From Rubripirellula sp. (GTDB lineage Bacteria > Planctomycetota > Planctomycetia > Pirellulales > Pirellulaceae): DNA of 44,732 nt. The notes below the pieces were generated by a model. The model ran no database searches and was not told the DNA's origin. It saw nothing but the letters and a program-made list of their open reading frames with translations. The stretch covers positions 1 to 44,732 of the forward strand of contig JAQWPZ010000255.1 of NCBI GenBank assembly GCA_029245125.1, in the 5' to 3' direction. The position numbers were made by a program, and so were the translations under genes. Positions 4,961-24,537 of this stretch are shown here, one piece after another (the first letter of the stretch is position 1; each line of letters starts with the position of its first letter).

Positions 4961-5578
4961 GTGGTTGGCCTGAACAAACTGTTCGGGCAGCCATGTTCGG
5001 CGAAGCAACTGGATAGATTAGTGACGAAGGATACGTCGAAAGCGGATACAACGCCGCTAGATCAACCTCAACTTGAGGGGAGCTCCGCCTCCTCCGTTGA
5101 CGCAGTAACCGATGGCACATCCACGCCACGAATCGGCAAGGCTGCTATCCTATTTGCCATCGCTTTGGGTGTATTTGCCGGGCTGGGCGTGTTCACGTTT
5201 GGCTACGGCAAAGGGGCAAGCTATCTAAGCAATAATCCGCAAACCTGCGTCAATTGTCATGTGATGCAAGATCATATGGATTCATGGCAACAAAGCAGCC
5301 ATCACCATGTCGCCGTTTGTAATGATTGCCATCTGCCGCATGATGCAATCGGAAAATGGGTTACCAAAGCGGACAACGGATTCTTTCATTCGTTAGTTTT
5401 CACTCTGGGTGGCTATAAAAATCCAATTCAGATCAAGCCTCGCAACCGGCGTGTGACACAGAGCACATGCGTCGATTGCCATCAAGATTTCGTACATAAC
5501 TTGCTGCCCGCTTCCACCGATGGGGACATGCAATCGTGTGTTCATTGTCATGCAGATGTAGGGCACGCGGGGCGTTAG
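4961..5578 (+). CDS. nrfH: NrfH, tetraheme quinol dehydrogenase of cytochrome c nitrite reductase
   Basis: Membrane-anchored NapC/NirT-family cytochrome that takes electrons from menaquinol and passes them to NrfA. One transmembrane helix lies at about 61-82, after a hydrophilic N-terminal extension. Four CXXCH motifs begin at Cys96, 120, 170 and 193, and the first is followed by Met102 (CVNCHVM), the NrfH-specific heme-1 ligand arrangement. The start is uncertain: both GTG at 4961 and GTG at 5021 (185 aa, closer to usual NrfH length) are in frame and no ATG precedes the membrane helix. It lies 102 nt before nrfA in the same direction, the standard nrfHA order. Identification is firm. Confidence 0.93.
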   Translation: MVGLNKLFGQPCSAKQLDRLVTKDTSKADTTPLDQPQLEGSSASSVDAVTDGTSTPRIGKAAILFAIALGVFAGLGVFTFGYGKGASYLSNNPQTCVNCHVMQDHMDSWQQSSHHHVAVCNDCHLPHDAIGKWVTKADNGFFHSLVFTLGGYKNPIQIKPRNRRVTQSTCVDCHQDFVHNLLPASTDGDMQSCVHCHADVGHAGR

Positions 5579-5680
5579 TAATTACCTCCCGAACCCCAGG
5601 TGCAGAACTGAGTAGAGCCCCTTGGGGGTCTCTCAATTCTCTCGCTTGCGACGTTCAGAACTATTAATCCACTAGATGAC

Positions 5681-7222
5681 ATGACAAAAAAACACGGCTT
5701 CGGATGGCTGCTACTCCTGACGAGCGTGACGGCAATTGCGACCCTTGGCGTGGCCGCTCTGCTGGTCAACATTTTCGAACGCAAGCAGGAAGCTCGCACG
5801 CCATTCACCAAGGTTGTCGAGGTCACCGAGATCAGTACGGATCCAAAACCTTGGGGGTTGAACTTTCCCCAGCAGTACGAAGATTACCTCAAAACGGTCA
5901 ATGATCCTTATACAGATTTTGGCGGAAATCACGCTTTGCCGCCCAGCAAGCTGGAAGAGCATCCTTGGCTGAAGCGATTGTTCGCCGGCTATGCGTTCAG
6001 CATTGATTATCGCGAAGCTCGCGGGCACTCTCATATGCTGGCGGATCAAAAAGCGACCAAACGGGTCACCGATGTCCAGCAATCTGGCGCTTGCTTGCAC
6101 TGCCATGCATCGATCATTCCAACCTATCGTCGCATCGGCTTGGAAATCCTGGGGGAAGAACCTACGACGGAGCGATTAGCAAACGACTTCGAAGCAGAAG
6201 CAGTGCTCGCAGGGTTCAAAGAGGTGAGCACGAAAACCTACGAAGAAATCCACGCCGAAGTCGAAAAGACACCCGACGGAATCGACGCCGCTTCAGGAGA
6301 CCCGCATCTCGGCGGCGCGCATCCAGTCTCTTGCGTCGACTGCCACGACCCACAAACGATGGAAATTCGCGTGACCCGCCCCGGTTTTATGCTGGGCATC
6401 GATAAATTGGCCCATAGCGATGATCCAGTACCGCACTTGCCGTCGATTCAAGCATGGCGGAACAACGGATCAAAAGGAGTCTATGACCCAAACACGATGG
6501 CCACACGGGCGGAAATGCGAACGTTCGTGTGTGGTCAGTGCCATGTCGAGTACTACTGTGCGAACAAAATGACGCTCACGTTTCCTTGGGCGAACGGCTT
6601 GAAGATGGAAGACCTCGAAGCCGAATGGGACAGTACGGTCTTTCCGGATGGCGGCGAGTTCTACGATTACGTTCATAAGGAAACCGGCACAAAAGTCTAC
6701 AAAGCGCAGCATCCAGAATTTGAACTGTGGAGCCAAGGGATCCACGCTCGCAGTGGTGTCAGTTGCAGTGACTGCCACATGCCTTACGAAAAGAAGGGGG
6801 CGACCAAAGTCAGCAGCCATTGGGTCCGCAGCCCAATGGAAAATATCAACAAAGCCTGCCAAACCTGTCACAATATTCCTGAGCAAGAGATTAAAGATCG
6901 CGTCGATTTGATCCAAGCTCGGACCAGCACAATGATCGATCGGGCTGCCACCGCAATGACTGAAATGCTCGACGCGATCATCGCAGTGCAAGCCGCCGGA
7001 GCCAACGAAGAACAACTCGCACCGATTCGAAAATTGCAACGCAAAGCGATGTGGCGTCTCGATTACATCGCTAGCGAAAATAGCAAGGGCTTCCACGCTC
7101 GACAGGAAGCAGCCCGAATTCTGGGTGAGTCAGTCGACTACAGTCGCCAAGCGATCGCGGCTTGCTACAAGTTAGATCTCGACGCGAAAGCAGACGAGGA
7201 AACAGTGGCGAAGGCTGACTGA
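5681..7222 (+). CDS. nrfA: NrfA, pentaheme ammonia-forming nitrite reductase (CXXCH active-site heme)
   Basis: Reduces nitrite to ammonium with six electrons at a periplasmic pentaheme centre. An N-terminal membrane helix (8-30) probably acts as anchor or uncleaved leader. Heme motifs begin at Cys138, 218, 284, 362 and 393. NrfA hallmarks are present: CGQCHVEYYC after heme 3 and KAQHPEFELW before heme 4, which hold calcium and active-site ligands. The usual active-site heme motif is CXXCK; here it is CLHCH, so His142 replaces the proximal Lys. This CXXCH variant is known in some NrfA lineages. The stretch between hemes 1 and 2 is long (about 75 residues). It follows nrfH and ends before a clear terminator. 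Confidence 0.96.
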   Translation: MTKKHGFGWLLLLTSVTAIATLGVAALLVNIFERKQEARTPFTKVVEVTEISTDPKPWGLNFPQQYEDYLKTVNDPYTDFGGNHALPPSKLEEHPWLKRLFAGYAFSIDYREARGHSHMLADQKATKRVTDVQQSGACLHCHASIIPTYRRIGLEILGEEPTTERLANDFEAEAVLAGFKEVSTKTYEEIHAEVEKTPDGIDAASGDPHLGGAHPVSCVDCHDPQTMEIRVTRPGFMLGIDKLAHSDDPVPHLPSIQAWRNNGSKGVYDPNTMATRAEMRTFVCGQCHVEYYCANKMTLTFPWANGLKMEDLEAEWDSTVFPDGGEFYDYVHKETGTKVYKAQHPEFELWSQGIHARSGVSCSDCHMPYEKKGATKVSSHWVRSPMENINKACQTCHNIPEQEIKDRVDLIQARTSTMIDRAATAMTEMLDAIIAVQAAGANEEQLAPIRKLQRKAMWRLDYIASENSKGFHARQEAARILGESVDYSRQAIAACYKLDLDAKADEETVAKAD

Positions 7223-7249
7223 AGGCGAATTGGCAATTGAACCACCGAG

Positions 7250-7280
7250 GGCCGCGTGACATTTCACCGCGGCCTTCTTT
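7250..7280 (+). terminator. Rho-independent terminator after nrfA
   Basis: GGCCGCG (7250-7256) pairs with CGCGGCC (7268-7274) across an 11-nt loop, followed by TTCTTT. It lies 27 nt after the nrfA stop, separating nrfHA from the radical SAM gene. Confidence 0.7.
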
Positions 7281-7325
7281 GTGGACCGATTCTATACCCT
7301 GGCATGCAGAATGCAGTAAGATCAG

Positions 7326-8513
7326 ATGAAAGAGTTCACCGATCCCAGGATTCAACGCATGATTGCCCGCCCCACCGACAACTTGACCACCACGAAGTCC
7401 GAGGCGACACGCCCGGTTCACGTTCGGTCACGCAAGTCACTCGACCAGAGTCCCATGCTGGTTTTTTACGAGCTGACGCAGGCGTGCGATTTAGTCTGTG
7501 CACATTGTCGCGCATGCGCGCAAAGACAACGCGATCCGAATGAACTGGATACCGCTCAATCGAAGCGATTGATCGATCAACTCAGTGAATTCCCTATTCC
7601 GCCCATGTTGATCTTGACTGGCGGCGATCCATTAAAACGGTCTGACATTTTCGAACTGATCAACTACGCAGTTGCCAGCGGGATCTACGTATCGATCACT
7701 CCCAGTGCGACCCCACTGGTCAACCGGGATTCGATCGAGCGACTGCGTGAGGCGGGGATCTCGCGGATGGCGATCAGTGTCGACGGTGCTGACGCCGCTA
7801 CGCACGATGCTAACCGAGGAGTAGCTGGCAGTTTCGACCACAGCATGGATGTGCTGCGAATCGCTCGCGAGCTGGGTGTCGAGACACAAATCAACACAAC
7901 CTTACTGCCGGCCAATGTGGATCAGATTGAGGCAATGGGAGAAACGTTTGGGAAACTTGACATCGCCCTGTGGTCGGTATTTTTCTTGATCCCAGTTGGG
8001 CGTGCTACCGAGATGAACAGGTTAAACGCAGAGCAATGCGAAGATGCATTTGTGCGATTGCATGCACAGTCCAGTCAGCAACCCTTCATGCTCAAAACGA
8101 CCGAGGCCCCCCATTACCGGCGGTATGTGATTCAGAACACTCCCAAAAGCGAACAGAAGGCTCCCCGTGGCTTTACTGCCGCTGGTATCAACGATGGCAA
8201 AGGCGTGATGTTCGTCAGCCATACCGGCGAGATTTTCCCGACTGGATTTTTGCCGTTGCATTGTGGCGATTTCCCCCGCCAAGGGATCGTGGATGTCTAT
8301 CAAAATTCACCGACCTTCCAGATGCTCCGCGACACGGATCGCCTGGAGGGTAAATGCGGCATTTGCTCGTTCCGCAACGTCTGCGGTGGGTCGCGAGCCA
8401 GAGCGTTTGGCGTGACAGGCAATCCGATGGCAGAAGAACCTGACTGCAACTACATCCCACCGCAACCTAGCCCCGAAGGGGATCGCGGGAAAAACGGCTC
8501 GCAAGCTGGATAA
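7326..8513 (+). CDS. Radical SAM/SPASM protein, NirJ/AhbD-like
   Basis: S-adenosylmethionine radical enzyme. The CX3CX2C motif is Cys54, Cys58, Cys61; LTGGDP is the SAM-binding GGE-type motif; RGVAGSFDHS is typical of the heme-modifying radical SAM group. The C-terminal SPASM-like block (CGICSFRNVCGG, RARAFGVTGN, then a final Cys) matches the auxiliary cluster region of NirJ (heme d1) and AhbD (coproheme decarboxylation), except that CGG is followed by Ser where those proteins usually have Cys. Neighbouring hemY supports a role in heme synthesis or tailoring for the many c-hemes encoded here. Exact reaction is not determined. An internal ATG at 7360 is an alternative start in another reading only if the N-terminus is trimmed; the 7326 start has AAGATCAG nearby. 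Confidence 0.85.
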   Translation: MKEFTDPRIQRMIARPTDNLTTTKSEATRPVHVRSRKSLDQSPMLVFYELTQACDLVCAHCRACAQRQRDPNELDTAQSKRLIDQLSEFPIPPMLILTGGDPLKRSDIFELINYAVASGIYVSITPSATPLVNRDSIERLREAGISRMAISVDGADAATHDANRGVAGSFDHSMDVLRIARELGVETQINTTLLPANVDQIEAMGETFGKLDIALWSVFFLIPVGRATEMNRLNAEQCEDAFVRLHAQSSQQPFMLKTTEAPHYRRYVIQNTPKSEQKAPRGFTAAGINDGKGVMFVSHTGEIFPTGFLPLHCGDFPRQGIVDVYQNSPTFQMLRDTDRLEGKCGICSFRNVCGGSRARAFGVTGNPMAEEPDCNYIPPQPSPEGDRGKNGSQAG

Positions 8514-8627
8514 CCAGGATCCATACGCTTATTCAAAACGGATCGATTCAATCGCCGATCATTCGTTGCCTCGCCCAGCCACTCCGTTTCGATTGGCCTT
8601 CATCAACCTTCCTACCCATTCTTTCCC

Positions 8628-10094
8628 ATGAACCAAAAGCACATCGCTGTCATCGGCGGCGGAATTTCTGGACTCGCGGCGGCTCACCGACTCAGGCAAC
8701 TCGACCCGACGGTCGAGGTCACGCTAGATGAATCAGCATCAAGGCTAGGAGGCGTCATCAAGACGACTGAAAAAAAGGGATTTTTGATAGAAGGGGCGGC
8801 AGATAATTTTATCACCACCTCATCGACCGCGATCGAACTTTGCAAAACGCTGGGTTTAGGAGAGGAGTTAATTCAAACTAATTCCGGCGGCGGCGGAGCC
8901 ATGGTAGTCAGTCACGGCAAGCTCGAGCCGATACCGCCTGGATTTATGGTGATGGCTCCATCCCGGATGTGGCCGATCTTGGCCACCAAAATCTTATCGC
9001 CAATGGGAAAACTGCGGTCCGGCATGGAGCTGTTTGTGCGTCCCAGGAAATACCAGCATGACGAATCGCTGCGTTCGTTCATCTGCCGGCGATTTGGCAC
9101 GGAAATGTTTGAACGACTCGTGCAGCCGCTGGTGGGCGGCATTTACACCGCAGACCCAACCCGATTGAGCGTCGCGGCAACGATGCCGCGGTTTTTAGAG
9201 ATGGAGCGTGAGCACGGCAGCTTGATTCGCGGCATGATGAATGGTCGTCGCCATCGCAAACACGATAAAGAAGGCCGCGGCGGCGCGAGGTACAGTCAAT
9301 TCATGACGCTTCGTGGAGGCATGTCACGTTTGATCAATGCGCTCGGTGATAGCTTGCCAGCACAAAATCTGCATCTGAATTCGCCAATTGAACGAGTGGA
9401 GCGTTTGGGAAATGGCTGGTTGATTTACAAGCAAAACTCTCGGCCGGTGCACGCCGATGCGGTGGTGATGGCGACACCGGCAACTCATACCGCTCGTTTG
9501 CTGAAAGGCGTCGATGCCAAGATGTCGCGGAGGTTGCGCAATATCAAATACGCCAGTTGTGCTGTGGTTTCACTCGGCTTTCGGAGGGATCAAATCAAGA
9601 ATCCGCTCAATTCATTCGGGTTTGTCGTTCCGCACGTCGAGAACCGCTTGATCTTGTCGTGCAGTTTTTCGAGCGAGAAGTACGTTGGCCGCGCGCCCGC
9701 TGGTACCGTCTTACTGAGAGTCTTTATCGGCGGCGCGATGCAGCCAGGACTACTGCGGATGCCCAGCAAGCAATTGATTGAGATGGCCCATCTGGAGATT
9801 GCAAAACTCTTGCAGGTCAAAGGCAAACCTATCCTTCGTCACATCACGCGGCAAAATCACGCCATGCCGCAATATCATGTTGGCCATCGAACACGAATCC
9901 ATGAAATCAACGATCGCTTGGGGGAGCATCCAACCCTTGCACTTGCAGGCAGTGCCATCTCTGGTGTCGGCGTTCCAGGTTGCATCCAGAGTGGGAACAA
10001 CGCAGCCGAAAAAGTGATCCAAGAACTCTGGAAAACTGACCCGAATCAGGACGGATCGACAACTCGTCGGGAGTGTATCCCAGCGCACTCTTGA
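8628..10094 (+). CDS. hemG: Protoporphyrinogen/coproporphyrinogen oxidase (HemY/HemG type)
   Basis: FAD-dependent, oxygen-using oxidase in late heme synthesis. The N-terminus has the dinucleotide-binding motif IGGGISGLAAAH (residues 9-20), followed by the flavin motif with RLGGVIKT and the EGAADNF segment typical of the HemY family. The motif QPLVGGIYTADP (about 164-175) is a family signature, and the C-terminal GSAISGVGVPGCIQSG is the second FAD-binding block. Length 488 aa is normal. It lies 114 nt after the radical SAM gene. The TGA overlaps an in-frame ATG of the next gene (TGATG). Gene naming varies (hemG/hemY/pgoX); substrate (proto- or coproporphyrinogen) cannot be told apart here. Confidence 0.93.
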   Translation: MNQKHIAVIGGGISGLAAAHRLRQLDPTVEVTLDESASRLGGVIKTTEKKGFLIEGAADNFITTSSTAIELCKTLGLGEELIQTNSGGGGAMVVSHGKLEPIPPGFMVMAPSRMWPILATKILSPMGKLRSGMELFVRPRKYQHDESLRSFICRRFGTEMFERLVQPLVGGIYTADPTRLSVAATMPRFLEMEREHGSLIRGMMNGRRHRKHDKEGRGGARYSQFMTLRGGMSRLINALGDSLPAQNLHLNSPIERVERLGNGWLIYKQNSRPVHADAVVMATPATHTARLLKGVDAKMSRRLRNIKYASCAVVSLGFRRDQIKNPLNSFGFVVPHVENRLILSCSFSSEKYVGRAPAGTVLLRVFIGGAMQPGLLRMPSKQLIEMAHLEIAKLLQVKGKPILRHITRQNHAMPQYHVGHRTRIHEINDRLGEHPTLALAGSAISGVGVPGCIQSGNNAAEKVIQELWKTDPNQDGSTTRRECIPAHS

Positions 10095-10234
10095 TGGCCG
10101 ACCTTCCCGTTTCTTATTCACTGCCTCCACGCAACGCCGACACACAACACTTTCAGACAATGGCGAACCGTACTTCGTTAAAGCATCATTTCTTTCTGTC
10201 GTCTCCAAATCGACCTCCCCAGTTTTTTAATACC

Positions 10235-11026
10235 ATGAGCACGGCATCCATTCGTCGCCCAGACACCACACGCATCCAACCGGCGGCGAAACTGCAGCCT
10301 AAAGAACATGGCGCATACGCGATTCTGGGAATCCCGATCACGACGGCACTACTTGTCGCTGCACCCAACACTGCCGGCGTCTGCATCGCAATCGCTGCGA
10401 TCGCTGGATTCCTTGCTCACGAACCGTTGCTGATTGCGGTTGGTCGTCGCGGCACTCGAGCCCAGCGAACGACACCAGCGGCGGCAAAACGGCTCAGCAT
10501 TTTACTGGGGCTGACGATCGCCTGCGGCGGCGCGGCATTCGCAATCGGGTCGCCAAACGTACAGGGAGCGTTGTTGCTGTGTGGTGCCCTGGCAACCGTC
10601 AGTTTCGCTTTGGCATTGCTTGGAAAGCACAAAACAATCCTCGGCCAACTTGGGGGAGTGATCGGACTGACTGCCCCGTCTGTTCCCATCCTGCTGGCAG
10701 GCGGTGTTACCCCTGCCGTGACAGCTGAAATCTGGACTGCTTGGCTGATCGGTTTCTCCGCAACGACGATGGCGGTGCGTGGAGTGATTGCCGCCCAAAA
10801 AAAGAATTCGCGAGTCATCCACTGGACATCGGTCATCACCTTCACTCTGCTAGCCACAGCACTAGCGACCAGCAACTTCGGTCCACTCATGGCCGTCTTT
10901 CCAATGCTGCTGATGGCGTGGTACCTAATGTTCGATCCGCCGCATGCCAAGCAACTCAAACGCGTTGGCTGGGCCTTGGTTGCTGGTACGATCACTTCGG
11001 CGATTTGGATTGTCGTGACTGTCTAG
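10235..11026 (+). CDS. YwiC-like integral membrane protein
   Basis: Polytopic membrane protein of about 263 aa with seven to eight hydrophobic segments. The N-terminal KEHGAYAILGIP motif matches the YwiC-like family (PKEHGA-type start). In Bacillus subtilis ywiC lies beside the narK/fnr and narGHJI genes (family knowledge), so its presence here fits nitrate respiration, but the molecular role is unknown. The start is uncertain: the reading frame is open back to ATG 10094, which overlaps the hemG stop as TGATG and could allow translational coupling (311 aa); the extra N-terminal 47 residues look poorly structured, so 10235 is preferred. Last gene of the radical SAM-hemG-ywiC run. Confidence 0.8.
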   Translation: MSTASIRRPDTTRIQPAAKLQPKEHGAYAILGIPITTALLVAAPNTAGVCIAIAAIAGFLAHEPLLIAVGRRGTRAQRTTPAAAKRLSILLGLTIACGGAAFAIGSPNVQGALLLCGALATVSFALALLGKHKTILGQLGGVIGLTAPSVPILLAGGVTPAVTAEIWTAWLIGFSATTMAVRGVIAAQKKNSRVIHWTSVITFTLLATALATSNFGPLMAVFPMLLMAWYLMFDPPHAKQLKRVGWALVAGTITSAIWIVVTV

Positions 11027-11701: not shown

Positions 11702-12958
11702 TTAATATTTGGCCGGATTTTTCAAGGTCGGCAACGCGGTTTTGATCGCGATGGTAAAGACCATTAAGCCAAACGCCCAGATCCCAACGGTAACTTTCCA
11801 CTCAAGCTGGCTGGGAACATATTCGACGATTTCATGCAGAGTGCTAGGCACGAAGCCTGGGATGATGAGCCCCATCCCTTTTTCAATCCAAGCACCAACG
11901 AACGCCATGCAGCAGGCGGCGACGAGCAGCGGACGCCAGCGAAAGGCCAGCAACCCAGGCCACAGGAATAACGCGGCAGCGGTTAGGTTCAGGCCGATCG
12001 CGGTCCATGTCCACGGAACGAGTGCCGTTTTTCCGTGTAATCCGAAGAACAGATACTTTGCGGCACTTGCGTGACTGCCGCCAGTGTAAAACTCTGTAAA
12101 CAGCTCAGAGGCAACCATCAGCAAATTGATCAAGATCGTCACGCGGATGATCTTGGTCAGGGTGGCGATGGGTTGGTCCAGTCCACCGACGCCTGTAATT
12201 CGCTTGATGAACACCATTGCGACGATGATGAACGCGGGGCCGGACACAAAGGCAGACGCGAGAAACCGAGGAGCGAGCAGCGCGGTATTCCAAAATGGCC
12301 TGCCGCCAAGTCCGCAGTACAAAAAAGCAGTGATCGTGTGAATGGAAATCGCCCACACAATCGACAACATGACAAATGGAATGTACCAAGTTGGATTTGG
12401 TTTTCGGCCAAGAAACCGCATGTATAACAAGTAGCCACAAATATGCAGGTTCAGCAACAGGTAGCCGTTCAAGACGATGACATCCCAAGTGAGCATCGAG
12501 ATGGGAAAGTTGAACTTACCGATCAGAGGCAGCAGATGCCAAAAACGATCCGGTCGCCCGAGGTCGGCGACAACAAACATCAGACACATCACGATTGCAG
12601 CGATTGCCAGTAACTCGCCAATGATCACCACGTCATGCATCTTGCGGTCATGATACAAATACGCCGGAATCACCATCATCACACCACCGGCGGCCAAACC
12701 AACCATGAATGTAAAGTTGGCAATGTACAGTCCCCAACTCACTTGGTCGGTCATGTTGGTGCCGATCATTCCACCAGCAACCTGATTGGCCCAGGCGTTC
12801 GCGCCCACTAGGAACACGGCGGTTAGCATCGTCATCCAAGCGTAAAAGGCCAGCGATCCCTCGGTCGCGAGCCACAGCGAGCGGCCCACAAATTTCGGAT
12901 AGCTCGTGATGTGCGATTCGTTCTCGCTCGGTGTTGCGGTGAGGCTGCTCATGATCAA
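11702..12958 (-). CDS. NrfD/PsrC/DsrP-type membrane quinol dehydrogenase subunit
   Basis: Integral membrane subunit that exchanges electrons between the quinone pool and a periplasmic iron-sulfur partner. About ten hydrophobic helices are visible across 418 residues, which is the ten-helix NrfD/DsrP/HybB form rather than the eight-helix PsrC form. Conserved acidic and His positions lie in the loop VADLGRPDRFWHLL (about 129-142). The upstream partners are a Tat-exported ferredoxin and a tetraheme cytochrome, giving the order cytochrome-FeS-NrfD, like DsrJ-DsrO-DsrP. In this locus it may feed NapA/NapB, since no NapC or NapH is present besides NrfH. Alternative starts are ATG 12958 and the nearby ATG 12952. 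Confidence 0.88.
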   Translation of the reverse strand: MIMSSLTATPSENESHITSYPKFVGRSLWLATEGSLAFYAWMTMLTAVFLVGANAWANQVAGGMIGTNMTDQVSWGLYIANFTFMVGLAAGGVMMVIPAYLYHDRKMHDVVIIGELLAIAAIVMCLMFVVADLGRPDRFWHLLPLIGKFNFPISMLTWDVIVLNGYLLLNLHICGYLLYMRFLGRKPNPTWYIPFVMLSIVWAISIHTITAFLYCGLGGRPFWNTALLAPRFLASAFVSGPAFIIVAMVFIKRITGVGGLDQPIATLTKIIRVTILINLLMVASELFTEFYTGGSHASAAKYLFFGLHGKTALVPWTWTAIGLNLTAAALFLWPGLLAFRWRPLLVAACCMAFVGAWIEKGMGLIIPGFVPSTLHEIVEYVPSQLEWKVTVGIWAFGLMVFTIAIKTALPTLKNPAKY

Positions 12959-13057: not shown

Positions 13058-13987
13058 CTAATCGAAGTAGTAAAAGAATGCCGGTTTTGTGCCGAGCTCT
13101 TCTTTCAGGATGTAAACACGTTTGTGATTCAGGATCCAACGAATGCTAGAATCGGGATCGAGAATATTGCCAAAGACACGAGCACCCGTTGGACAGGCTT
13201 CCAAACAAGCAGGCAATTTGCCACGCCGGGTGCGGTGCAGGCAAAACGTGCACTTTTCGACGACACCCACCGGACGAATGCGATTGCTTAGATAGCTTTG
13301 ATCCGGGTTCACGTCTTCAGGGGGAACCGTTGGCTGCTTCCAATTGAAGCGTCTGGCATGATAGGGGCAAGCCGCTTCACAGTACCGGCAACCAATGCAC
13401 CAGTTGTAATCAACCACCACGATGCCGTCTTCTTCTTTCCAAGTTGCCTTCACTGGGCAAACATCTACGCAGGGTGGCTCGTCGCACTGTTGGCATTGAA
13501 CAGGCAGATAGAATTTGTCGTCTTTCGGCACCGCCCCAGAATAGGTCGTTGACCCTTGCTCCATATCCATGGTGCCCTTGGGCATCTCAAGGACTCGGAT
13601 ATAAGACTGATTTGTATCCCGGTCGTGGTTGTTTTCCTTGTGACAAGCTTCGACGCACTTGCCGTTGCCATTGCAAACACTCAAATTGATGGCATAGACA
13701 AATTTCGTATTGGGGATTGGCCGATCGTCCGCGATCTGCACATCCACGCCGTAGTTCTCTTTGGCTTCCTCTTCCAGTCGTGCGATCACCTCCGCTTTTT
13801 GCTCGGCGGTCAGTTCCTGGTAATGTTGCTGCATGAACTCGGCTGCTGTCGAATTCTTGGCCGCTTGACGGAGCGGCGAGACGGCAGCGACAAACGCACC
13901 GGCCCCTAAGGTCGCAAAAGCACCCTTGACCGCAGCACGCCGCGAGAAATTCTCGACGACAGGCAGGCTTGGTTTCTGTTCTGCCAT
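13058..13987 (-). CDS. Tat-exported 4Fe-4S ferredoxin (NrfC/DsrO-like)
   Basis: Periplasmic electron carrier between the NrfD-like subunit and the tetraheme cytochrome. A twin-arginine leader (SRRAAVKGA, residues 15-23, then a hydrophobic stretch) directs folded export. Cluster motifs: 165/168/173/177, 197/200/203/207 and 246/249/261/265 are complete. The first motif is CNGNGKC plus C115: Cys105, Cys111, Cys115, with Asn108 where the family normally has the second Cys, leaving 15 rather than 16 ligands. The start is 3 nt after the stop of the cytochrome gene, so the two are translationally linked. NrfC/DsrO/HmcB-type proteins share this layout; exact partner is inferred from position. Confidence 0.9.
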   Translation of the reverse strand: MAEQKPSLPVVENFSRRAAVKGAFATLGAGAFVAAVSPLRQAAKNSTAAEFMQQHYQELTAEQKAEVIARLEEEAKENYGVDVQIADDRPIPNTKFVYAINLSVCNGNGKCVEACHKENNHDRDTNQSYIRVLEMPKGTMDMEQGSTTYSGAVPKDDKFYLPVQCQQCDEPPCVDVCPVKATWKEEDGIVVVDYNWCIGCRYCEAACPYHARRFNWKQPTVPPEDVNPDQSYLSNRIRPVGVVEKCTFCLHRTRRGKLPACLEACPTGARVFGNILDPDSSIRWILNHKRVYILKEELGTKPAFFYYFD

Positions 13988-14671: not shown

Positions 14672-14704
14672 CCAAAACGAGGTTCCGCTGCCGACTCAAA
14701 AGAT

Positions 14705-15148: not shown

Positions 15149-15222
15149 GTACCCGGGTTTGCCTTCACCTCTTTCAATCTTGCGATCCCGCGTCAAATTT
15201 TTTGAACACAAAGAGAAACTCC

Positions 15223-17649
15223 ATGAAGACGCTGAATACCGATCGTCGTCAATTGATGAAGACCGCCGCGATGGCGGCAGCCGGTTCGCTGGTTACCGGT
15301 GGAGTGTCGTTGCCGGTCGTGAATGCTGATCAAGCTGTCGGGGAATTGCCCGCTGGCGAAGGCTTGTCGTGGAACAAAGCCCCCTGCCGATTTTGTGGAA
15401 CTGGATGCCACGTTCAGGTCGGTGTGGAAAACGGTCGCGTCGTTGCGATCGCGGGTGATAAGGCCGCTGACGTCAACAAAGGATTGTTGTGCGTCAAAGG
15501 CTATCATGTCGGCGGAATCCTGTATGGCAATGATCGGCTGACCAAGCCGCTGCTGCGAAAGGATGGAAAACTTGTCGAAATTGAGTGGGACGAAGCGCTC
15601 GATGTGATCGCCCAACGGATCATGAAATCGCCCGAGACCTTTGCGTTCTATGGCTCCGGCCAATGGACGATTCCAGAAGGTTACGCCGCCCAGAAATTCA
15701 TGAAGGGCGGATTAAGCAACAACCACATCGACCCCAACGCCCGACTCTGCATGGCATCAGCGGTGACCGGGTTCATTGCAACCTATGGCGTCGACGAACC
15801 AGCTGGCTGCTACCAAGATCTTGATGAGTGCGATGTCCTGATCACCTGGGGGAATAATCCCGCCGAGATGCACCCTGTGCTGTTTTCAAGGGTCACCGAT
15901 CGCCGCTCCCGAGGTGAGAAAGTCACGATCATCGACATCGGCACGCGGCGGACACGAACCACTGATGCAGCCGACGACTATTTGGAAATGAAACCGCATG
16001 GTGACGTTGCCATCGCTCTGGGCATCATGCATCTGTTGATTGAAAACGACAATTACGACAAGTCATTTGTCGAAAAGCATTGCAACTTCCGAGCACTGGA
16101 AGCGGCGACACCAACCTTGAAGGGCGAGGCAATCACGGAAGACGAATACCGGAAACGAATCGCGAAATACACCCCCGAACTTGTCGAGGAGCTTTCGGGA
16201 GTACCTGCGGAAAAAATTCGTATGCTAGCCGGGCTGTTCGCCAATCGTGATCGCCGCATCACCAGCCTGTGGTGCATGGGGATGAACCAACACACAATGG
16301 GGACGGCGGTCAATTCACTCGTTCACGGTGTGCATTTAATGTCGGGCCACTTCGGTCGTCCGGGGGATGCGCCAACCAGCCTGACCGGTCAACCATCCGC
16401 CTGTGGAACCGTACGCGAAGTCGGGACACTCGCTCATGCCCTGCCCGGCGGTCGCCTGGTCGCCAAAGAAGACCATCGGCAACAATGCGAAGAGTTCTGG
16501 AATCTGCGAGCGGGCAGCATCCAAGGCGTGCCCGGATACCACACGGTCAAGATGTTCGAACAGTTCACCAAACCGACCTCGGAGGGGGGCGACATCACGA
16601 CAATGTTTGTCCAGGTCACCAATCCTGGACAAACACTGCCAAACTTGAACAAGCTATTTAACAGCAAGCAAGGACTCGAAGATAAGTTTTTGATCGTCAG
16701 CGATGTCTATCCAACCGCGAGCACAGAGCTTGCCGATCTAATCTTGCCTGCCGCAATGTGGGTTGAAAAAAATGGGGTCTACGGCAACAGCGAAAGACGG
16801 ACGCAGCAGTGGTTCAAGATGGTCGATCCACCCGGTGACGCTCGCGATGACACTTGGATGACGATTGCCATTGCCCGCAAACTGTTCGATCTTGGCCATG
16901 AAGGAATGAAAGACAACGATGGCGAGTTCATTTTCTCGGTCAAAGATGAGACCGGAAAAGAAATCCCAATTTGGGAATTCGAGCATTACTACGACACGAA
17001 TGTTGACAAACATCTGTTCGAGGAATACCGCCAATTCACGACGATGAAGCACAAGAACCTGGCCCCGTACGATGAGTATGTAAAGGCTCGCGGCTTGCGT
17101 TGGCCCGTGGTCGAGCAAGATGACGGATCGTGGCGAGAAACCCGATTTCGCTTTTCAGCATTTGACGATCCATTCGTCAGCGAAGGCCAAGAATTTGAGT
17201 TCTACCACTCGACATCCCAAGATGGGCGGGCGCAAATCTGGTTCCACGACTACACGCCTCCACCGGAGCAGCCAGATCAGGAATATCCATTCTGGCTCTG
17301 CACCGGTCGCGTGCTAGAACACTGGCATACCGGCACAATGACACGACGATTGTCACCGTTGAACCGGGCGATGCCGACCGCGTACATCGAAATGAATCCG
17401 CAGGATGCCAAGGCTGCAAACATTCGCCAGGGAGAGACAGTGGTGATCGAAACACGACGCGGCAAAACTGAATTGCCGGTCTGGATCGATGGGCGTGGTC
17501 GGCCACCTGCTGGTTCGGTGTTCGTCCCATTCTTTGATGAAACGAAGCTGATCAACGACTGCACGCTCGATGAACACGATCCGTTCTCGAAGCAGCCAGA
17601 TTACAAAAAATGCGCTGCCCGTATCGTTAAAAAAACAGCAGCCGGTTGA
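15223..17649 (+). CDS. napA: NapA, periplasmic nitrate reductase catalytic subunit
   Basis: Molybdopterin-guanine-dinucleotide enzyme reducing nitrate to nitrite in the periplasm. A Tat leader (DRRQLMKTAA, residues 7-16) precedes the 4Fe-4S motif Cys55, Cys58, Cys62, Cys90. Cys176 in NARLCMASAV is the molybdenum ligand characteristic of NapA-type nitrate reductases. The C-terminal molydopterin-dinucleotide-binding domain is recognisable by LCTGRVLEHWHTGTMTRR (about 693-710), a typical NapA segment. Length 808 aa is normal. ATG 15223 is chosen over the TTG at 15202 because AAGAGAAA lies 7 nt before it and the Tat leader then has ordinary length. Followed by napB after 22 nt. Confidence 0.97.
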   Translation: MKTLNTDRRQLMKTAAMAAAGSLVTGGVSLPVVNADQAVGELPAGEGLSWNKAPCRFCGTGCHVQVGVENGRVVAIAGDKAADVNKGLLCVKGYHVGGILYGNDRLTKPLLRKDGKLVEIEWDEALDVIAQRIMKSPETFAFYGSGQWTIPEGYAAQKFMKGGLSNNHIDPNARLCMASAVTGFIATYGVDEPAGCYQDLDECDVLITWGNNPAEMHPVLFSRVTDRRSRGEKVTIIDIGTRRTRTTDAADDYLEMKPHGDVAIALGIMHLLIENDNYDKSFVEKHCNFRALEAATPTLKGEAITEDEYRKRIAKYTPELVEELSGVPAEKIRMLAGLFANRDRRITSLWCMGMNQHTMGTAVNSLVHGVHLMSGHFGRPGDAPTSLTGQPSACGTVREVGTLAHALPGGRLVAKEDHRQQCEEFWNLRAGSIQGVPGYHTVKMFEQFTKPTSEGGDITTMFVQVTNPGQTLPNLNKLFNSKQGLEDKFLIVSDVYPTASTELADLILPAAMWVEKNGVYGNSERRTQQWFKMVDPPGDARDDTWMTIAIARKLFDLGHEGMKDNDGEFIFSVKDETGKEIPIWEFEHYYDTNVDKHLFEEYRQFTTMKHKNLAPYDEYVKARGLRWPVVEQDDGSWRETRFRFSAFDDPFVSEGQEFEFYHSTSQDGRAQIWFHDYTPPPEQPDQEYPFWLCTGRVLEHWHTGTMTRRLSPLNRAMPTAYIEMNPQDAKAANIRQGETVVIETRRGKTELPVWIDGRGRPPAGSVFVPFFDETKLINDCTLDEHDPFSKQPDYKKCAARIVKKTAAG

Positions 17650-17671: not shown

Positions 17672-18463
17672 ATGAAACGTTTAACAACCATTTTTCTGTC
17701 AGTCGTGATCGCTGTCGCTGTCGTCGGCTATCTAGCTGGCATGCTCGATGGCATCCCGAATGCCGAAGGCATGGACCAGCACGCATTGGTAACGAGCCTC
17801 GACACGAAAGCAATCGAAGCAGACCCCAAGCTGATTCCCGCGGTCACCTATGCGGAGATTGCGCAAACAGCGATGGGACCAACAGCCGCCTGGAGCAACG
17901 AAGCGAAAGCCCTGCCCAGTGCCGAGTACGATCTCTATACCAAGATCGAGCCGAGCGAAGCGGATAAAGCAGCTTCCAGTGCATTGCGGGCATCGCGGCG
18001 GGCCTACAATGGCGCGCCACCCATCATCCCACACGCGGTCGAGAATACGACAGACGCTGCTTGCTATGCCTGCCACGGTCAAGGTGCAAAGATCGCGGGC
18101 TTACGAGCGAGCGTGATGTCGCATCAATTCCTAGCGAACTGCACGCAGTGCCATGCACCGCCGGCTCCCAAGCCGTTCCAAAATATCGACAGCAAAGTCG
18201 ATTCCAGCTTTGTTGGATTGCCAGCCCCCCGCCAAGGCGAGCGGGCCAGCAAAGGAGCGCCGCCAACGATCCCACACTCGCGCTGGATGCGGGAAAATTG
18301 CAATGCCTGTCACGGTGGCCCACACGGTTGGGCGGGGATGGAATCAACGCACCCTTGGCGAACCAATTGCACGCAATGCCATGCCCCCTCCGCAGCACTC
18401 GACCAGATGCCGGATTCCGACGCCGTCCCAATGCTGCCACCGCTTGACGTGGTAACAAACTGA
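17672..18463 (+). CDS. napB: NapB-like cytochrome with duplicated diheme unit (four hemes)
   Basis: Periplasmic electron donor to NapA. Residues 1-24 form a leader or anchor helix. NapB normally has two c-hemes; here there are four CXXCH motifs at Cys131, 157, 210 and 233. They fall in two similar blocks: GAPPIIPH (114-121) with CYACH and CTQCH, then GAPPTIPH (195-202) with CNACH and CTQCH. The second block (MRENCNACHGG, then HPWRTNCTQCH) is the canonical NapB pattern, so the first looks like an internal duplicate. At 263 aa it is long for NapB. Located 22 nt after napA and before napF. Start ATG 17672 is supported by GAAGTC-type purines and the leader; an in-frame upstream extension overlaps napA and is rejected. 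Confidence 0.9.
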   Translation: MKRLTTIFLSVVIAVAVVGYLAGMLDGIPNAEGMDQHALVTSLDTKAIEADPKLIPAVTYAEIAQTAMGPTAAWSNEAKALPSAEYDLYTKIEPSEADKAASSALRASRRAYNGAPPIIPHAVENTTDAACYACHGQGAKIAGLRASVMSHQFLANCTQCHAPPAPKPFQNIDSKVDSSFVGLPAPRQGERASKGAPPTIPHSRWMRENCNACHGGPHGWAGMESTHPWRTNCTQCHAPSAALDQMPDSDAVPMLPPLDVVTN

Positions 18464-18508: not shown

Positions 18509-19333
18509 GTGTCGCAGGGCGAAGAAGACTCCGAGAAACAACCGCAGGCGCGTCGACTCGCAGGGGTGAGCCGCCTCGCCGCTGCCTTGTTTCACTTCCC
18601 CGCGCGGGCTTGGGCTTTCTGGTTCAAGCCAAACAGAACCTCGGCAAGCCGCCGAGCCTTTCTGCAGGGCCGCGTTTGGAAACTAGTGCCACGATCAAAG
18701 TTTCCGCCGCTCGTGATGCGGTACCCCCGCACGCGGGCTGATATCGACACGGAAGCCTCCACCGAACCAAGCCACTCAACCCGTCATATCGCGGGGATCA
18801 GCATCGAACCGGTGGCAGCGACCAACCTCGGCCCAGTCCCCAAATTGGCTGCCCAGGCAATACCTGTCCATCGCCCACCCGGCGCCGTCGATGAATCGCA
18901 ATTTTTGTTGGGCTGCACGCGCTGTGGCGAATGCATCGCGGCGTGCCCGCATGACGCGATTCGCAAAGCGGCAAACCGCCTGGGGCCGGTTGCCGGCACG
19001 CCCGTCATCGAAGCCGACCTCGCAGCCTGTCTAATGTGCGAAGACTATCCCTGCATCGCTGCCTGTGAACCAGGTGTCCTCACCGACTCCCTTCCCGTCA
19101 CCATGGGAACTGCCAGGGTTACCGAGCATCTCTGCCTGGCCCATCACGGGACAACCTGCACCATCTGCAGTGAACGTTGTCCCGTTGAGCACGCGATTTG
19201 CGTCAATGACGGCAAGCCCGCCGTCAACGAGGATGCCTGTACTGGCTGTGGTGTTTGCCGTTATGTTTGTCCCGCACCCGAAAATGCCATCCTCTTAATG
19301 CCGGCTTTTAAACGACCGAGGTACACAGCATGA
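18509..19333 (+). CDS. napF: NapF-like cytoplasmic 4Fe-4S protein
   Basis: Iron-sulfur accessory protein for NapA maturation. The pattern SRRAFLQGR (47-55) followed later by RPPGAVDESQFLLGC matches the SRRxxLxGR...RPPW...ESxFLxxC layout of NapF, as do CLAHHGTTCTICSERCP and the terminal CTGCGVCRYVCP. Cluster cysteines: 136/139/142/146, 174/177/182/186, 217/220/224 and 244/247/250/254. SRRAFLQG resembles a Tat motif but sits at residue 47 without a following hydrophobic core, as in cytoplasmic NapF. Compared with enteric NapF it has an N-terminal extension (1-45) and an insert of about 50 residues (60-115). Start is GTG 18509; no better ATG precedes the motif. Its stop overlaps the next ATG. 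Confidence 0.85.
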   Translation: MSQGEEDSEKQPQARRLAGVSRLAAALFHFPARAWAFWFKPNRTSASRRAFLQGRVWKLVPRSKFPPLVMRYPRTRADIDTEASTEPSHSTRHIAGISIEPVAATNLGPVPKLAAQAIPVHRPPGAVDESQFLLGCTRCGECIAACPHDAIRKAANRLGPVAGTPVIEADLAACLMCEDYPCIAACEPGVLTDSLPVTMGTARVTEHLCLAHHGTTCTICSERCPVEHAICVNDGKPAVNEDACTGCGVCRYVCPAPENAILLMPAFKRPRYTA

Positions 19334-19629: not shown

Positions 19630-20140
19630 GGAATTTTTCCTAGCCGGCCTGCGGCAGCGGTGACGACACCAGACGCCTCAACCCGCAGCAGAAGTGAATA
19701 TGCAATTCGCAACTTAGTTTCTTTCGGCATCCACGCCTCCCTTGAGCATCCACGCCTCCCTCGAGTGTCTCCGCCTCCTTGGAGTGCCGCCGATCCCTTC
19801 CCTGTGTGCCTACATTCTTTTCTATTGCATGCCTGCATTCTTTTTCGTTTAGCAAAAGCACTCTGCCCGGCACCCCGCGTTTCCGCACTACAAGCCACAT
19901 CCGGTGAGCGAGGCCCGTAACGCGATTAAGACCGCTGGGATCGTTAACGAAAATAGGCCTAGCCGAAACCTGCACCTTGTTGTATACTTTACGTGTTTGA
20001 CACAGAGAACACTCGCGGAGGCTCAGCCAGTACCAGGTATTTTGCTGGCATCGCTGCTGCAATTCGTTGATTGCGGTTGGCGATCGAACCTCCGCTTCGC
20101 TGATCGTTTAAAGATTACCCATCGCTGGACAAAGCCAATC
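19630..20140. other. Intergenic region between the nap operon and ric
   Basis: 511 bases without a convincing gene. It contains decaying tandem repeats (19727-19852) and, nearer ric, TGTATACTTTACGTG (19981-19995), which has half-site likeness to the ATACAC/GTGTAT elements seen elsewhere. The reading frame of ric is open upstream to 19904 but that part has no ribosome binding site and is not ric-like. Confidence 0.5.
19727..19852. repeat. Decaying 19-bp and 23-bp tandem repeats
   Basis: About four 19-bp units start at 19727, 19746, 19765 and 19784; the first two are nearly identical (GCATCCACGCCTCCCTTGA type), the others degrade. They are followed by two 23-bp units at 19807 and 19830 (TGCCTRCATTCTTTTY core). 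No ORF is supported. Confidence 0.7.
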
Positions 20141-20869
20141 ATGCTTACACTCGACCCCCAAATGACTGTTGGTGATTTTGTTCGTCAGCGCCCCTCACGC
20201 GCTCGCGTATTTGAAAATCTGCAAATCGATTATTGCTGTGGCGGCAAACTGACGCTCAACCACGCCTGTGAAAAACGTGGGATGGAAGTCGTCGATGTGC
20301 TGCGGCAAGTCGAAGCATGTGATGCGACCACCGACTCACAGGAAATTGTTGATGCAGATGCGATGACGATGACCGAACTGGCGGACCACATCGAATCAAC
20401 GCACCATGCGTATCTACGCAGCGAGCTTCCGCGGCTAGACGCGATGACGGAAAAGGTGACACGTGTTCATGGCGATAAAGACAAGCGGCTATACCGTATG
20501 CGAGACGCTTTTGTTGCTCTGAAAGCCGAGCTTGAACCGCATATGATGAAAGAAGAGCGCATCTTGTTTCCAATCGTAAGACAATTGGATGCATCGCAAT
20601 CCCGGCCCGAATTTCATTGCGGTAACGTCGCAAATCCCATTCGCCAGATGGAGCACGAGCATGAACAAGCCGGGCTTGCCTTGGCGACTCTTAATGAAAC
20701 CACGGATGGGTACACCGCTCCAGAGTGGGCGTGCAACACGCACCGTGCGCTGCTCGATTCACTTGCGAAGCTCGAAGCAGACATGCATCAACATATTCAC
20801 AAAGAAAACAACGTGCTCTTTCCCAAAGCGATCCAGCGAAACAACGAATCCGGATTGCGAGAAATTTAA
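20141..20869 (+). CDS. ric: Ric/ScdA/YtfE, iron-sulfur cluster repair di-iron protein
   Basis: Cytoplasmic di-iron protein that repairs iron-sulfur clusters or handles NO after nitrosative or oxidative stress. The N-terminal DUF542/ScdA_N domain (MTVGDFVRQRP, 8-18; IDYCCGG, 29-35 with the CC pair at 32-33) is followed by a hemerythrin-like four-helix domain with the ligand set HIESTHHAY, EPHMMKEE, MEHEHEQ and HQHIHKEN. 242 aa is typical. ATG 20141 is used because the domain begins right after it. Its TAA overlaps the ATG of the cupin gene. Location beside nap/nrf and an Rrf2 regulator fits nitrosative-stress defence. Confidence 0.95.
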   Translation: MLTLDPQMTVGDFVRQRPSRARVFENLQIDYCCGGKLTLNHACEKRGMEVVDVLRQVEACDATTDSQEIVDADAMTMTELADHIESTHHAYLRSELPRLDAMTEKVTRVHGDKDKRLYRMRDAFVALKAELEPHMMKEERILFPIVRQLDASQSRPEFHCGNVANPIRQMEHEHEQAGLALATLNETTDGYTAPEWACNTHRALLDSLAKLEADMHQHIHKENNVLFPKAIQRNNESGLREI

Positions 20870-22765: not shown

Positions 22766-22810
22766 AATGGCAAACCTGTTCAAATCGACTTTTGCAATTG
22801 ACTGGTTATC

Positions 22811-23239
22811 ATGATTTCCAAAACTGCCGAATACGCTTTGCGTGCGACCGCCTGCATGGGAAGCAAACCTGATCAACCTGTCTCCGCAGATGAGTTGGCG
22901 AAGCAAACAAAGGTGCCCAGGCGATACTTGACGCGGGTCCTACAAGACTTGTGTGCCGCAGGAATGGTGCGGTCACGCCCCGGCCCCGGCGGTGGCTACG
23001 AGCTGATCCCTTCGACTGACAAAGTGACCATCCTAGATGTGATCAACACCGTCGATCCGATCGAACGGATAAAGAACTGCCCGCTGGGGCTGAAGAGTCA
23101 CACCAAGCTCTGCCCGCTTCACACTGAGCTTGACCGCGCTTATGCGGCCACTGAAAAAGCATTCGCTGGAGTTACGATTCGTGAGTTGGTCGAATCGGCG
23201 AGTCCAATTATTCCGCTGTGCGAAAGCTCGTCCTCGTGA
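22811..23239 (+). CDS. Rrf2-family regulator, NsrR-like
   Basis: Winged-helix transcription factor of 142 aa beginning [12 protein letters not shown], the standard Rrf2 start. The recognition helix region is [19 protein letters not shown] and the wing is [10 protein letters not shown]. Iron-sulfur ligand region: Cys90 in RIKNCPLG and Cys101 in KLCPLH, with His97 and His104 nearby. The usual third cysteine of IscR/NsrR is absent in this segment. Given ric, nap and nrf around it, NO or redox sensing is likely (inference). DUF3565 starts within its stop (GTGA), so they are coupled. Confidence 0.88.
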
Positions 23240-23538
23240 CCCGCTCTGACCTTGCGCGGCAGCAACCAATCACTGGGTTTCACCGGGACACTGAAGATCA
23301 CTGGGTCGCACAACTCGCATGCGGCCACAATCAACACGTGCGTCACGATCCACCACTTGTTCGCCGTTTTTGGACGCAGAGCAAAAATGGTCGGACGTCA
23401 ATGCTTGGCTACGATCTGCCTTGCAAGAAATGTGTCGAAGGTGCCGCACCAGACGAGCAACCGAAGCGACGCCCCGAGTTGCACGCACCGCGTCCCAAAT
23501 TGAACGCACCGCGCAGTTCACCTCTATCCACCGATTGA
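23236..23538 (+). CDS. DUF3565 family protein
   Basis: About 100 aa. [20 protein letters not shown], then [11 protein letters not shown] and LPCKKC match the DUF3565 family, a small protein with a probable Cys/His metal site (CGH...CKKC). The GTG start at 23236 overlaps the Rrf2 stop as GTGA; the longer frame from 23218 is less likely. The last 30 residues are Pro/Arg-rich and vary. Its 3' end overlaps the 3' end of moaA on the other strand by 15 bp. Function unknown. Confidence 0.8.
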
Positions 23539-24537
23539 ATACATCGGGCGTGAAGGGCGGTCAAAGGAAAGGTCGTCGGTACCATGACCGCGGTGTTTAG
23601 AAAGCACTGCGTCATGCAACAACTGCGCGATCGTCTCATCGCTACTGCCACCTCGCAACAACTGACGGACGTCGCCCGAATCACCGCCGAACAGGCAATT
23701 TCTCAGTTGCCCGTCAGCGGTCAACCGAAAGCGATTACAGGTACTGCAAAATGGCTCGGTGACCGACGCGATAATCCCAACTGTACCGACACCGTCGTCG
23801 AACTCGTAGTCAGTCGCAGGTGAAGCATTCGGCTGATTTTTGGGAACCACCGGCCGAACCTGCTGTGAGAACATTTTCAAAATCTGCTGACCACTAAGCA
23901 CCTTCGATTCAACCCAGTTGCCATCGGAATCCAGTGGCATAAATTCGATGAACCGCACAGGGATTCCCGTGCGGCGAGCAAATTCGCCAAACGCAACGAT
24001 TTGATGTTCGGTGAAATCACGCATCGCGATCGCATTGATCTTCACCTTGATTCCCTGTTCTTGGCAGACCGCGATCACGTCGAGCACCCTTTTCAGTCCC
24101 GGCCGCCGAGTGATTTGAGTGAAAGCCGACTCATCGAGAGCATCCAAGCTGATATTGACGCTTTTTAAGCCAGCGGACAGCAGATCTGGCAACTGGTCGG
24201 CAAGTAAGATGCCGTTCGTCGTAAGAGAAACCTTTTTGATCCCTGAAATCTCACCGATTGACGCCACCAATTTATGTAATTGTGATCGCACCAGTGGTTC
24301 ACCGCCTGTCAGGCGAACATCATCGACCCCCAAGCCGGCAGCGATCCGCACGACGCGAGTGATCTCTTCGAAAGTCAGTATCTCCCTGCGTTCGGCGTAA
24401 TCTGGCGTATCGGCTGGCATGCAATACGTGCAGCGAAGGTTACAGCGATCGGTCACGCTGACACGCACACTAGTGTGCTTTCGGCCAAATTGATCCACCA
24501 ACACGTTTGGTTCAATCCCTACGGGTAAGATTTGCAA
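23524..24537 (-). CDS. moaA: MoaA, GTP 3',8-cyclase
   Basis: Radical SAM enzyme for the first step of molybdenum cofactor synthesis, needed by NapA. The N-terminal cluster is Cys32, Cys36, Cys39 (CNLRCTYC), with LTGGEPLVR as SAM motif. The C-terminal cluster is FCSTCNRFRL...RNCLFG and the protein ends in the double glycine MYSIGG that inserts into the active site. 337 aa is standard. The start is a TTG at 24537; no ATG occurs before the first cluster, so a downstream GTG (residue 12 or 14) is an alternative. Convergent with DUF3565 and downstream of the porin terminator, so it has its own promoter. Confidence 0.96.
   Translation of the reverse strand: MQILPVGIEPNVLVDQFGRKHTSVRVSVTDRCNLRCTYCMPADTPDYAERREILTFEEITRVVRIAAGLGVDDVRLTGGEPLVRSQLHKLVASIGEISGIKKVSLTTNGILLADQLPDLLSAGLKSVNISLDALDESAFTQITRRPGLKRVLDVIAVCQEQGIKVKINAIAMRDFTEHQIVAFGEFARRTGIPVRFIEFMPLDSDGNWVESKVLSGQQILKMFSQQVRPVVPKNQPNASPATDYEFDDGVGTVGIIASVTEPFCSTCNRFRLTADGQLRNCLFGGDSGDVRQLLRGGSSDETIAQLLHDAVLSKHRGHGTDDLSFDRPSRPMYSIGG

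Follow-up and report, generated by a model that had tools for sequence, protein, structure and literature searches.

An NrfD-type membrane module beside the periplasmic nitrate reductase genes of a Rubripirellula genome, a candidate electron donor to NapA

The nap genes and the divergent trio

We analysed a 44,732-nucleotide stretch of Rubripirellula sp. DNA (contig JAQWPZ010000255.1, positions 1–44,732, assembly GCA_029245125.1), here called the window, in which the genes of a periplasmic nitrate reductase (Nap) lie next to a divergently transcribed trio encoding a tetraheme cytochrome c, a ferredoxin and an NrfD-family membrane protein. The gene cluster extends from NrfH (4961) to MoaA (24537), and the assembly to which it belongs (G000) comprises 7.06 Mb in 334 contigs and is 91% complete. 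Profile searches confirmed the genes named by the initial annotation, that is NrfHA, the divergent trio, heme and molybdenum cofactor genes, Ric and an Rrf2 regulator. The genes of nitrate and nitrite reduction and the trio are as follows.

4961–5578, plus strand: NrfH, quinol dehydrogenase of NrfA (TIGR03153 166 bits, cut-off 134)
5681–7222, plus strand: NrfA, ammonia-forming nitrite reductase with five CXXCH heme motifs (PF02335 370 bits)
11702–12958, minus strand: NrfD/DsrP1-type integral membrane subunit with a probable quinol site (NF045798 428 bits, PF03916 130 bits)
13058–13987, minus strand: Tat-type ferredoxin of the NrfC/DsrO type (NF045797 190 bits, barely below the cut-off of 200; PF13247)
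13991–14671, minus strand: membrane-anchored tetraheme cytochrome c of the trio (four CXXCH; N-terminal helix in the predicted model)
14672–14784, no strand: promoter region shared by the two divergent units, with the dyad TATACACT-N3-GTGTA (ATACAC-N4-GTGTAT at 14705–14720)
14785–15102, plus strand: NapD chaperone (PF03927 32.5 bits, cut-off 28)
15202–17649, plus strand: NapA, catalytic molybdenum bis-pyranopterin guanine dinucleotide (Mo-bisPGD) subunit (PRK13532 872 bits, TIGR01706 832 bits)
17672–18463, plus strand: NapB, tetraheme, with an N-terminal helix (PF03892 31 bits, cut-off 25; four CXXCH)
18509–19333, plus strand: NapF/NapG-like ferredoxin (NapG model 100 bits, NapF model 61 bits, each below its cut-off)

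The trio is transcribed in the order tetraheme cytochrome c, ferredoxin and NrfD-family protein. A gap of 113 bases separates the start of its cytochrome gene from that of the divergent NapD gene, which is followed by NapA, NapB and the NapF/NapG-like ferredoxin. The dyad in this gap is single in the window (mean expectation 0.00). When 13 intergenic regions of Pirellulaceae (window included) were aligned, 10 showed a degenerate form to the eye; the exact dyad was seen in none of the 56 relatives examined. The exact operator dyad was therefore rejected as a conserved element; what the Pirellulaceae have in common is no more than the degenerate form.

NapA shares 43% identity with its E. coli counterpart and finds its best matches in the NapA families, the next family reaching 447 bits. 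The initial annotation read the operon as NapDABF; NapD, NapA and NapB are indeed present, but the tetraheme nature of NapB had been missed and the ferredoxin scores higher as NapG than as NapF. E. coli NapB carries two CXXCH motifs, whereas the two halves of window NapB are 45% identical (E 2e-12; HHalign probability 99.6%), and on this evidence we read it as a tandem duplication of a diheme unit. A profile of 44 aligned sequences matches the diheme NapB structures 3ml1, 1jni and 1ogy, and the predicted model of window NapB (mean pLDDT, the predicted local distance difference test, 71.8) has a helix at residues 2–25. The four heme motifs and four further histidines are invariant among these 44 sequences, rows that were chosen for having four motifs. 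No Tat-type hydrophobic stretch was seen by eye in the ferredoxin at 18509–19333 when the N-termini of relatives were compared, and to call it NapF-like is reasonable but not settled.

The NrfD protein of the trio has about 10 transmembrane helices (hydropathy windows merged by eye) and keeps the conserved quinone-site residues of its family, an aspartate in transmembrane helix 2 and a serine; Asp132, Ser154 and Asp159 are invariant in 17 aligned sequences. When the published residue numbers of DsrP1 (PMC8076601) were carried over by piecewise offsets, with no alignment to Desulfovibrio vulgaris DsrP, 18 of the 20 quinone-site and ion-path residues were identical in the window protein, 17 of them at offsets of 26–31 and one at 24. 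Fifteen of these 18 are invariant in the alignment, and the score is 15, where 100 shuffles reached 7 at most. For seven other families the number of identities lay between 6 and 11 and the scores fell within their shuffled range. Half-channel residues are largely conserved, and among solved structures the protein comes closest to ActC subunits of Alternative Complex III.

The trio ferredoxin carries a Tat-like motif, SRRAAV, at residue 15, and its closest solved chain is 2vpw_B, labelled as an NrfC protein. In the trio cytochrome the four CXXCH motifs and four further histidines are invariant among 43 aligned sequences, again chosen for having four motifs, and the predicted model (mean pLDDT 80.5) starts with an N-terminal helix at residues 2–33. 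The initial annotation had likened the trio to DsrJOP. Since the cytochrome has four heme motifs and the DsrJ model gave no match to it, we conclude from its sequence that it is not DsrJ and that the trio is not DsrJOP.

Conservation of the trio–nap linkage

Conservation of this arrangement was followed in two samples. The phylum sample consisted of 294 evenly drawn genomes (handles beginning with G), of which 73 had an NrfD match (1e-10) and 50 a NapA match (1e-150). The NrfD alignment was also scanned over 84,980 GTDB species genomes, giving at least 586 pattern matches and at least 569 relatives, and the best 80 loci were kept, six of them duplicate sequences already in the phylum sample. 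Group A was defined by an NrfD 64–74% identical to that of the window, or by trio genes adjoining a close napA (24 genomes, the window's own included); group B by an NrfD of 52–57% identity (12 loci); and distant trios by an NrfD of 37–50% identity (about 30 matches, 20 loci mapped, plus L144 separately).

The initial annotation had proposed to look for co-location of the trio with napDAB in other planctomycetes, and this was found: of the 24 group A genomes, 22 have trio genes and napA together on a fragment. NrfD and napA genes occur together in 20 loci from 19 of these genomes, every time on opposite strands, and the cytochrome or ferredoxin gene adjoins napA in three more (G236, G254 and G164). 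The contig ends at the junction in the remaining two, G179 and G116, the latter being without a NapA match. Sixty-six of the best 80 loci carry a NapA of at least 63% identity (57 divergent, 9 co-directional), and one, L198, holds only a distant NapA (33%). No napA was called in the other 13; less than 3.4 kb is available upstream of the NrfD gene in 12 of them, and L174 shows a partial NapA. L166 has 4.7 kb upstream, with an octaheme cytochrome gene there and no napA on the contig. On the fragments of the distant trios napA was found in none of the 20 mapped loci, and likewise not in that of L144. NapB was called in 61 of the best 80 loci, 59 times with four CXXCH motifs, once with five and once, broken up, with three.

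Group B joins the trio to a different partner. A cytochrome of the HAO octaheme family adjoins the trio in all 12 loci, and napA is present, co-directional, in nine; six of these nine NapA proteins are only 37–39% identical to window NapA. A further trio (L103, 51%) also has a co-directional napA. The initial annotation had described a compact island combining Nap and Nrf, and such an island is not fixed: three of the mapped group A loci, namely the window, L197 and L203, were the only ones seen to carry nrfHA on the fragment, so that its linkage to trio and nap is occasional.

By record title, which is the source of taxon names for all loci outside the phylum sample, the best 80 loci belong to Planctomycetota, Verrucomicrobiota, Myxococcota, Sumerlaeia and a Vicinamibacteraceae metagenome-assembled genome (MAG). 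Cultured carriers are found in Rhodopirellula, Roseiconus, Roseimaritima, Stieleria, Adhaeretor, Archangium, Haloferula and Persicirhabdus; as regards nitrate reduction, the name of one species, Roseiconus nitratireducens (L149), is no more than suggestive.

Several further observations were made on these loci. Many planctomycete loci have an HAO-family octaheme cytochrome adjoining napA, whether the trio is there (group B) or not (L097:10252–11694, L101:8258–9703, L104, L105:7475–9055, L129–L131 and L133–L136), and the nearest solved chain to that of L097 is 4qo5. Octaheme cytochrome and napA form a possible second Nap-linked ammonification layout. The trio NrfD carries a C-terminal hemerythrin domain in L085 (5973–7526, by alignment) and L086 (4421–5983, by PF01814 scan), perhaps an oxygen or nitric oxide sensor on the quinol module. 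Between L173 and the window, NapA is 83% and the trio ferredoxin 87% identical, the NrfD protein only 70%, a pattern that may reflect replacement of the NrfD gene inside the trio. The cut-off of the DsrP model NF045798 was exceeded by window NrfD and by all ten NrfD proteins scanned from groups A to D, and the model is thus not specific. Dissimilatory sulfite reductase did not accompany group A, DsrA being above its cut-off in none of the 24 genomes, two of which (the window's own and G152) also supplied proteins to the NF045798 scan. Automatic annotation by this model would label Nap-linked NrfD proteins as subunits of sulfate reduction. Selenocysteine in NapA was considered and dropped. One in-frame TGA was initially counted in each of seven genomes (G016, G128, G190, G192, G246, G249 and G271); upon re-reading it was a terminal stop in G271 (L056) and G192 (L099), and none lay inside the re-aligned match in G128, G190, G246 and G249.

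Electron supply to NapA

Other quinol dehydrogenases were searched for with PF03264 (NapC/NrfH family) in the 24 group A genomes and in 16 named genomes, and a NapC of the ordinary type was found in none of these 40. In the window's own genome the only PF03264 matches are NrfH and a 729-residue protein with seven CXXCH motifs. Fifteen group A genomes have a match adjoining NrfA, and five have none (G152, G077, G009, G264 and G164). The other four have different matches only, below the cut-off in G018, in a seven-CXXCH protein in G190 and G246 and in a larger protein in G254. Twelve of the 16 named genomes have a match of NapC/NrfH size, adjoining NrfA in all 12; three have no match and one has it only in an 818-residue frame (second matches, in frames of about 700–860 residues, were left out of the neighbourhood check). 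NapH (TIGR02163) exceeded its cut-off in none of 44 genomes and gave no match whatever in G152, G147, G176, G100 and G009; no linked NapG and NapH were recognised at the window locus.

Two genomes, G152 (assembled as one contig) and G009 (40 contigs, 94% complete), keep the trio and napDAB and have no PF03264, NrfA or NapH match. Their gene content argues against supply by NrfH or NapGH, and against service to NrfA, as general explanations of the trio, and the suggestion of NrfH as donor does not hold in general.

We consider it probable, from gene content and protein anatomy, that the trio serves as dedicated quinol dehydrogenase to a periplasmic nitrate reductase that works without NapC. Quinol would be oxidised at a periplasmic-side pocket of the NrfD/DsrP1-type subunit, and electrons would pass through the ferredoxin to the membrane-anchored tetraheme cytochrome, from there to tetraheme NapB and on to NapA, which would reduce nitrate to nitrite. 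In the window organism nitrite would then be taken on to ammonium by NrfHA, with NrfH as its own quinol dehydrogenase. What we infer here is that these proteins interact physically, that electrons flow in this direction and that the substrate is nitrate. The route is supported by the adjacency of trio and napA in group A and in the best 80 loci together with its absence from the distant trios, by the lack of an ordinary NapC in the genomes searched and of any PF03264, NrfA or NapH match in G152 and G009, and by anatomy, namely the Tat motif, the N-terminal helices and the conserved quinone-site residues. It is also supported by recurrence, as group B joins trio, octaheme cytochrome and napA in nine of 12 loci.

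Several observations weigh against this route. The scores of NapA are slightly under the NCBIfam cut-offs (904 for PRK13532 and 931 for TIGR01706), and several planctomycete napAB loci are without the trio. NapA and NrfD distances correlate moderately (Spearman 0.38 over 79 loci), exceeding all of 200 permutations. A tree of NrfD (129 rows) places group A on one side of a branch with support 0, and group B closer to the distant trios than to group A, weakly; consequently, the Nap link of the trio may be ancestral or have arisen twice. The remaining points concern other possible donors and are taken up with the alternatives to which they belong.

An alternative that seems unlikely is supply of NapAB from Alternative Complex III or from a bc1 complex via cytochrome c, with the trio in an accessory role. 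Such feeding by Qcr has a precedent in the QcrABC of Campylobacter jejuni (PMC6195509). At least one further NrfD-family protein was found by PF03916 in each of six genomes checked, G152 and G009 included; it is probably ActC of Alternative Complex III, and such a complex could feed NapB via a soluble carrier. The initial annotation thus went too far in stating that the trio or NrfH 'must' supply NapA. These further NrfD proteins are known by Pfam match alone, however, and proximity to napA is a feature of the trio clade (22 of the 24 genomes from the phylum sample, 66 of the best 80 loci). Alternative Complex III and bc1 complexes are generic, in contrast to the Nap-linked trio. Service of the trio to nitrite reduction by NrfA or an HAO-like octaheme cytochrome, as in E. 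coli NrfBCD, with the proximity of nap reflecting a single pathway, is a still weaker contender. It would agree with the octaheme gene directly adjoining the trio throughout group B, with L166, and with nrfHA, which borders the trio in the window and shares its fragment in L197 and L203. Against it, G152 and G009 have the trio and napDAB without an NrfA match, and in the genomes followed (15 sampled, 12 named) NrfA is paired with an NrfH.

We give the least credence to the idea that NrfH, a NapH–NapG-like protein or a larger NapC/NirT-family protein is the donor to NapA, although each has its counterpart in the data. NrfH is encoded in the window itself (4961–5578). The initial annotation had stated that there is no NapG or NapH, which does not hold for the genome as a whole, as an unlinked NapH–NapG-like fusion of 783 residues is encoded on another contig (C319 of G000, 6866–9214; L146). 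This protein joins a NapH-like membrane domain to a NapG-like domain with a Tat motif, and its neighbour has a C-terminus that by eye resembles a flavin mononucleotide-binding domain. NapH matches below the cut-off and NapG-like matches directly follow napB in the trio-bearing loci of G271 and G279, so that two modules can coexist. Finally, G254, G116 and G179 (L240, L243 and L244) have a frame of 476–653 residues in which an N-domain of the NapC/NirT type (CGxxCH) is combined with five more CXXCH motifs, a protein that is no ordinary NapC but could be a quinol dehydrogenase there. Against these candidates, G152 and G009 lack any such match. Fusion matches, with the three best candidates scored per genome, occur in 55 of the 294 sampled genomes, six of these being among the 50 that have NapA and 49 among the 244 that do not; G121, a genome without a NapA match, has the closest ortholog of the C319 fusion (63%). 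As it is not tied to NapA, the fusion was rejected as a general Nap donor. The findings in G271 and G279 and those on the NapC/NirT-type proteins nevertheless lowered our confidence in the trio route by a small step. The NrfD-based route to Nap put forward by the initial annotation is supported by the conserved adjacency and by G152 and G009, as the favoured and not as the sole possibility.

If the trio does feed NapB, it possibly conserves energy. Neither the NapC nor the NapGH route conserves energy, according to PMC6195509, and QrcABCD, which has a related NrfD-type subunit, was electrogenic in liposomes (PMC6303296). How NapC is replaced in organisms with NrfH is less understood according to a review (PMC12285233). 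A widespread electrogenic wiring of Nap, in which an ion-translocating NrfD/DsrP1-type module passes electrons from quinol to NapB and replaces NapC in many users of NrfH, is a tentative extension that we would not yet favour. The trio offers a testable candidate for an NrfD-fed Nap, distributed over several phyla by record title and with cultured carriers. If its NrfD subunit moves protons, periplasmic nitrate reduction in these bacteria would conserve energy at the dehydrogenase, and expectations of growth yield would change.

Neighbouring genes and known systems

The cluster includes the following further genes.

7326–8513, plus strand: radical SAM/SPASM protein of the TIGR04053 family, AhbD-like (439 bits, cut-off 395)
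8628–10094, plus strand: protoporphyrinogen oxidase (TIGR00562 303 bits, cut-off 98)
10073–11026, plus strand: YwiC-like membrane protein (PF14256 57 bits), which adjoins the trio in L180 and L183 too
19904–20869, plus strand: Ric/YtfE di-iron repair protein (TIGR03652 245 bits, from residue 89)
22811–23239, plus strand: Rrf2-family regulator (TIGR00738 104 bits)
23524–24537, minus strand: MoaA, molybdenum cofactor synthesis (TIGR02666 366 bits)

The true start of Ric/YtfE is probably near residue 80–88. The first of the five heme motifs of window NrfA is CLHCH, unlike that of E. coli NrfA, which is CXXCK. An outer-membrane porin of the Alginate_exp family (24663–26513, PF13372) closes the cluster; porins of 22–49% identity were found repeatedly in the nap loci of relatives, and it is a possible nitrate/nitrite porin. 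Upstream of the cluster, at 2786–3205, repetitive reading frames overlap in three frames, which by eye suggests short tandem DNA repeats. A mechanosensitive-channel-like protein, also recognised by eye, is encoded at 34522–36066 and has a run of AGSDQ repeats near its N-terminus.

Nap systems linked to NapC or NapGH (E. coli, Wolinella, Campylobacter) share with the present one NapA, NapB, NapD and a NapF/G-like ferredoxin, and Nap independent of NapC is already known in Wolinella and Campylobacter (PMC6195509). Here, in contrast, the membrane module, of a type that does not ordinarily serve nitrate reduction, consists of NrfD, ferredoxin and tetraheme cytochrome, NapB is tetraheme, no ordinary NapC was found in the searched genomes, and a NapH match is wholly missing in five of the 24 group A genomes. 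E. coli NrfBCD, of the NrfCD family, follows the same logic, an NrfD-type subunit, a ferredoxin and a multiheme cytochrome leading to a periplasmic reductase. The trio differs from it in having a tetraheme and not a pentaheme cytochrome, an NrfD of the DsrP type and NapAB as its neighbour, and here NrfA has NrfH; where these genes were followed, no coupling of the NrfD module to NrfA emerged. As in DsrMKJOP, the NrfD protein passes the NCBIfam DsrP cut-off (428 against 350 bits) and keeps the DsrP1 residue set, and the ferredoxin resembles DsrO. The trio cytochrome has four heme motifs, whereas DsrJ has three, and no match to DsrM or DsrK was found among the cluster genes scanned.

Nap of Caldithrix abyssi, which occurs with an octaheme epsilon-Hao, likewise lacks NapC and is tied to another quinol-oxidising module, described as NapGH plus Rieske/cytochrome b with NapM and not as NrfD (PMC5317091). 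The available parts of the NrfD census PMC8076601 and of the list in PMC6303296 name no Nap partner. A 2023 paper reported an NrfD-type cluster downstream of nap in the MAGs OFTM8 and OFTM33; L154 and L155 belong to these two MAGs and are probably the same loci. In the available sections of that paper a general role in respiratory electron transfer was suggested, and the cluster was seen as a reduced version of one that contains ActD and has been proposed as a nitrite reductase or respiratory complex, not as a Nap partner (PMC10732223). This was the only description of NrfD by nap found, in a search that did not extend to subscription literature, where an earlier one is possible. What is new here, compared with these systems, is a Nap in which NapB is tetraheme and the quinol module is of the NrfD type, an arrangement that recurs beyond one genome.

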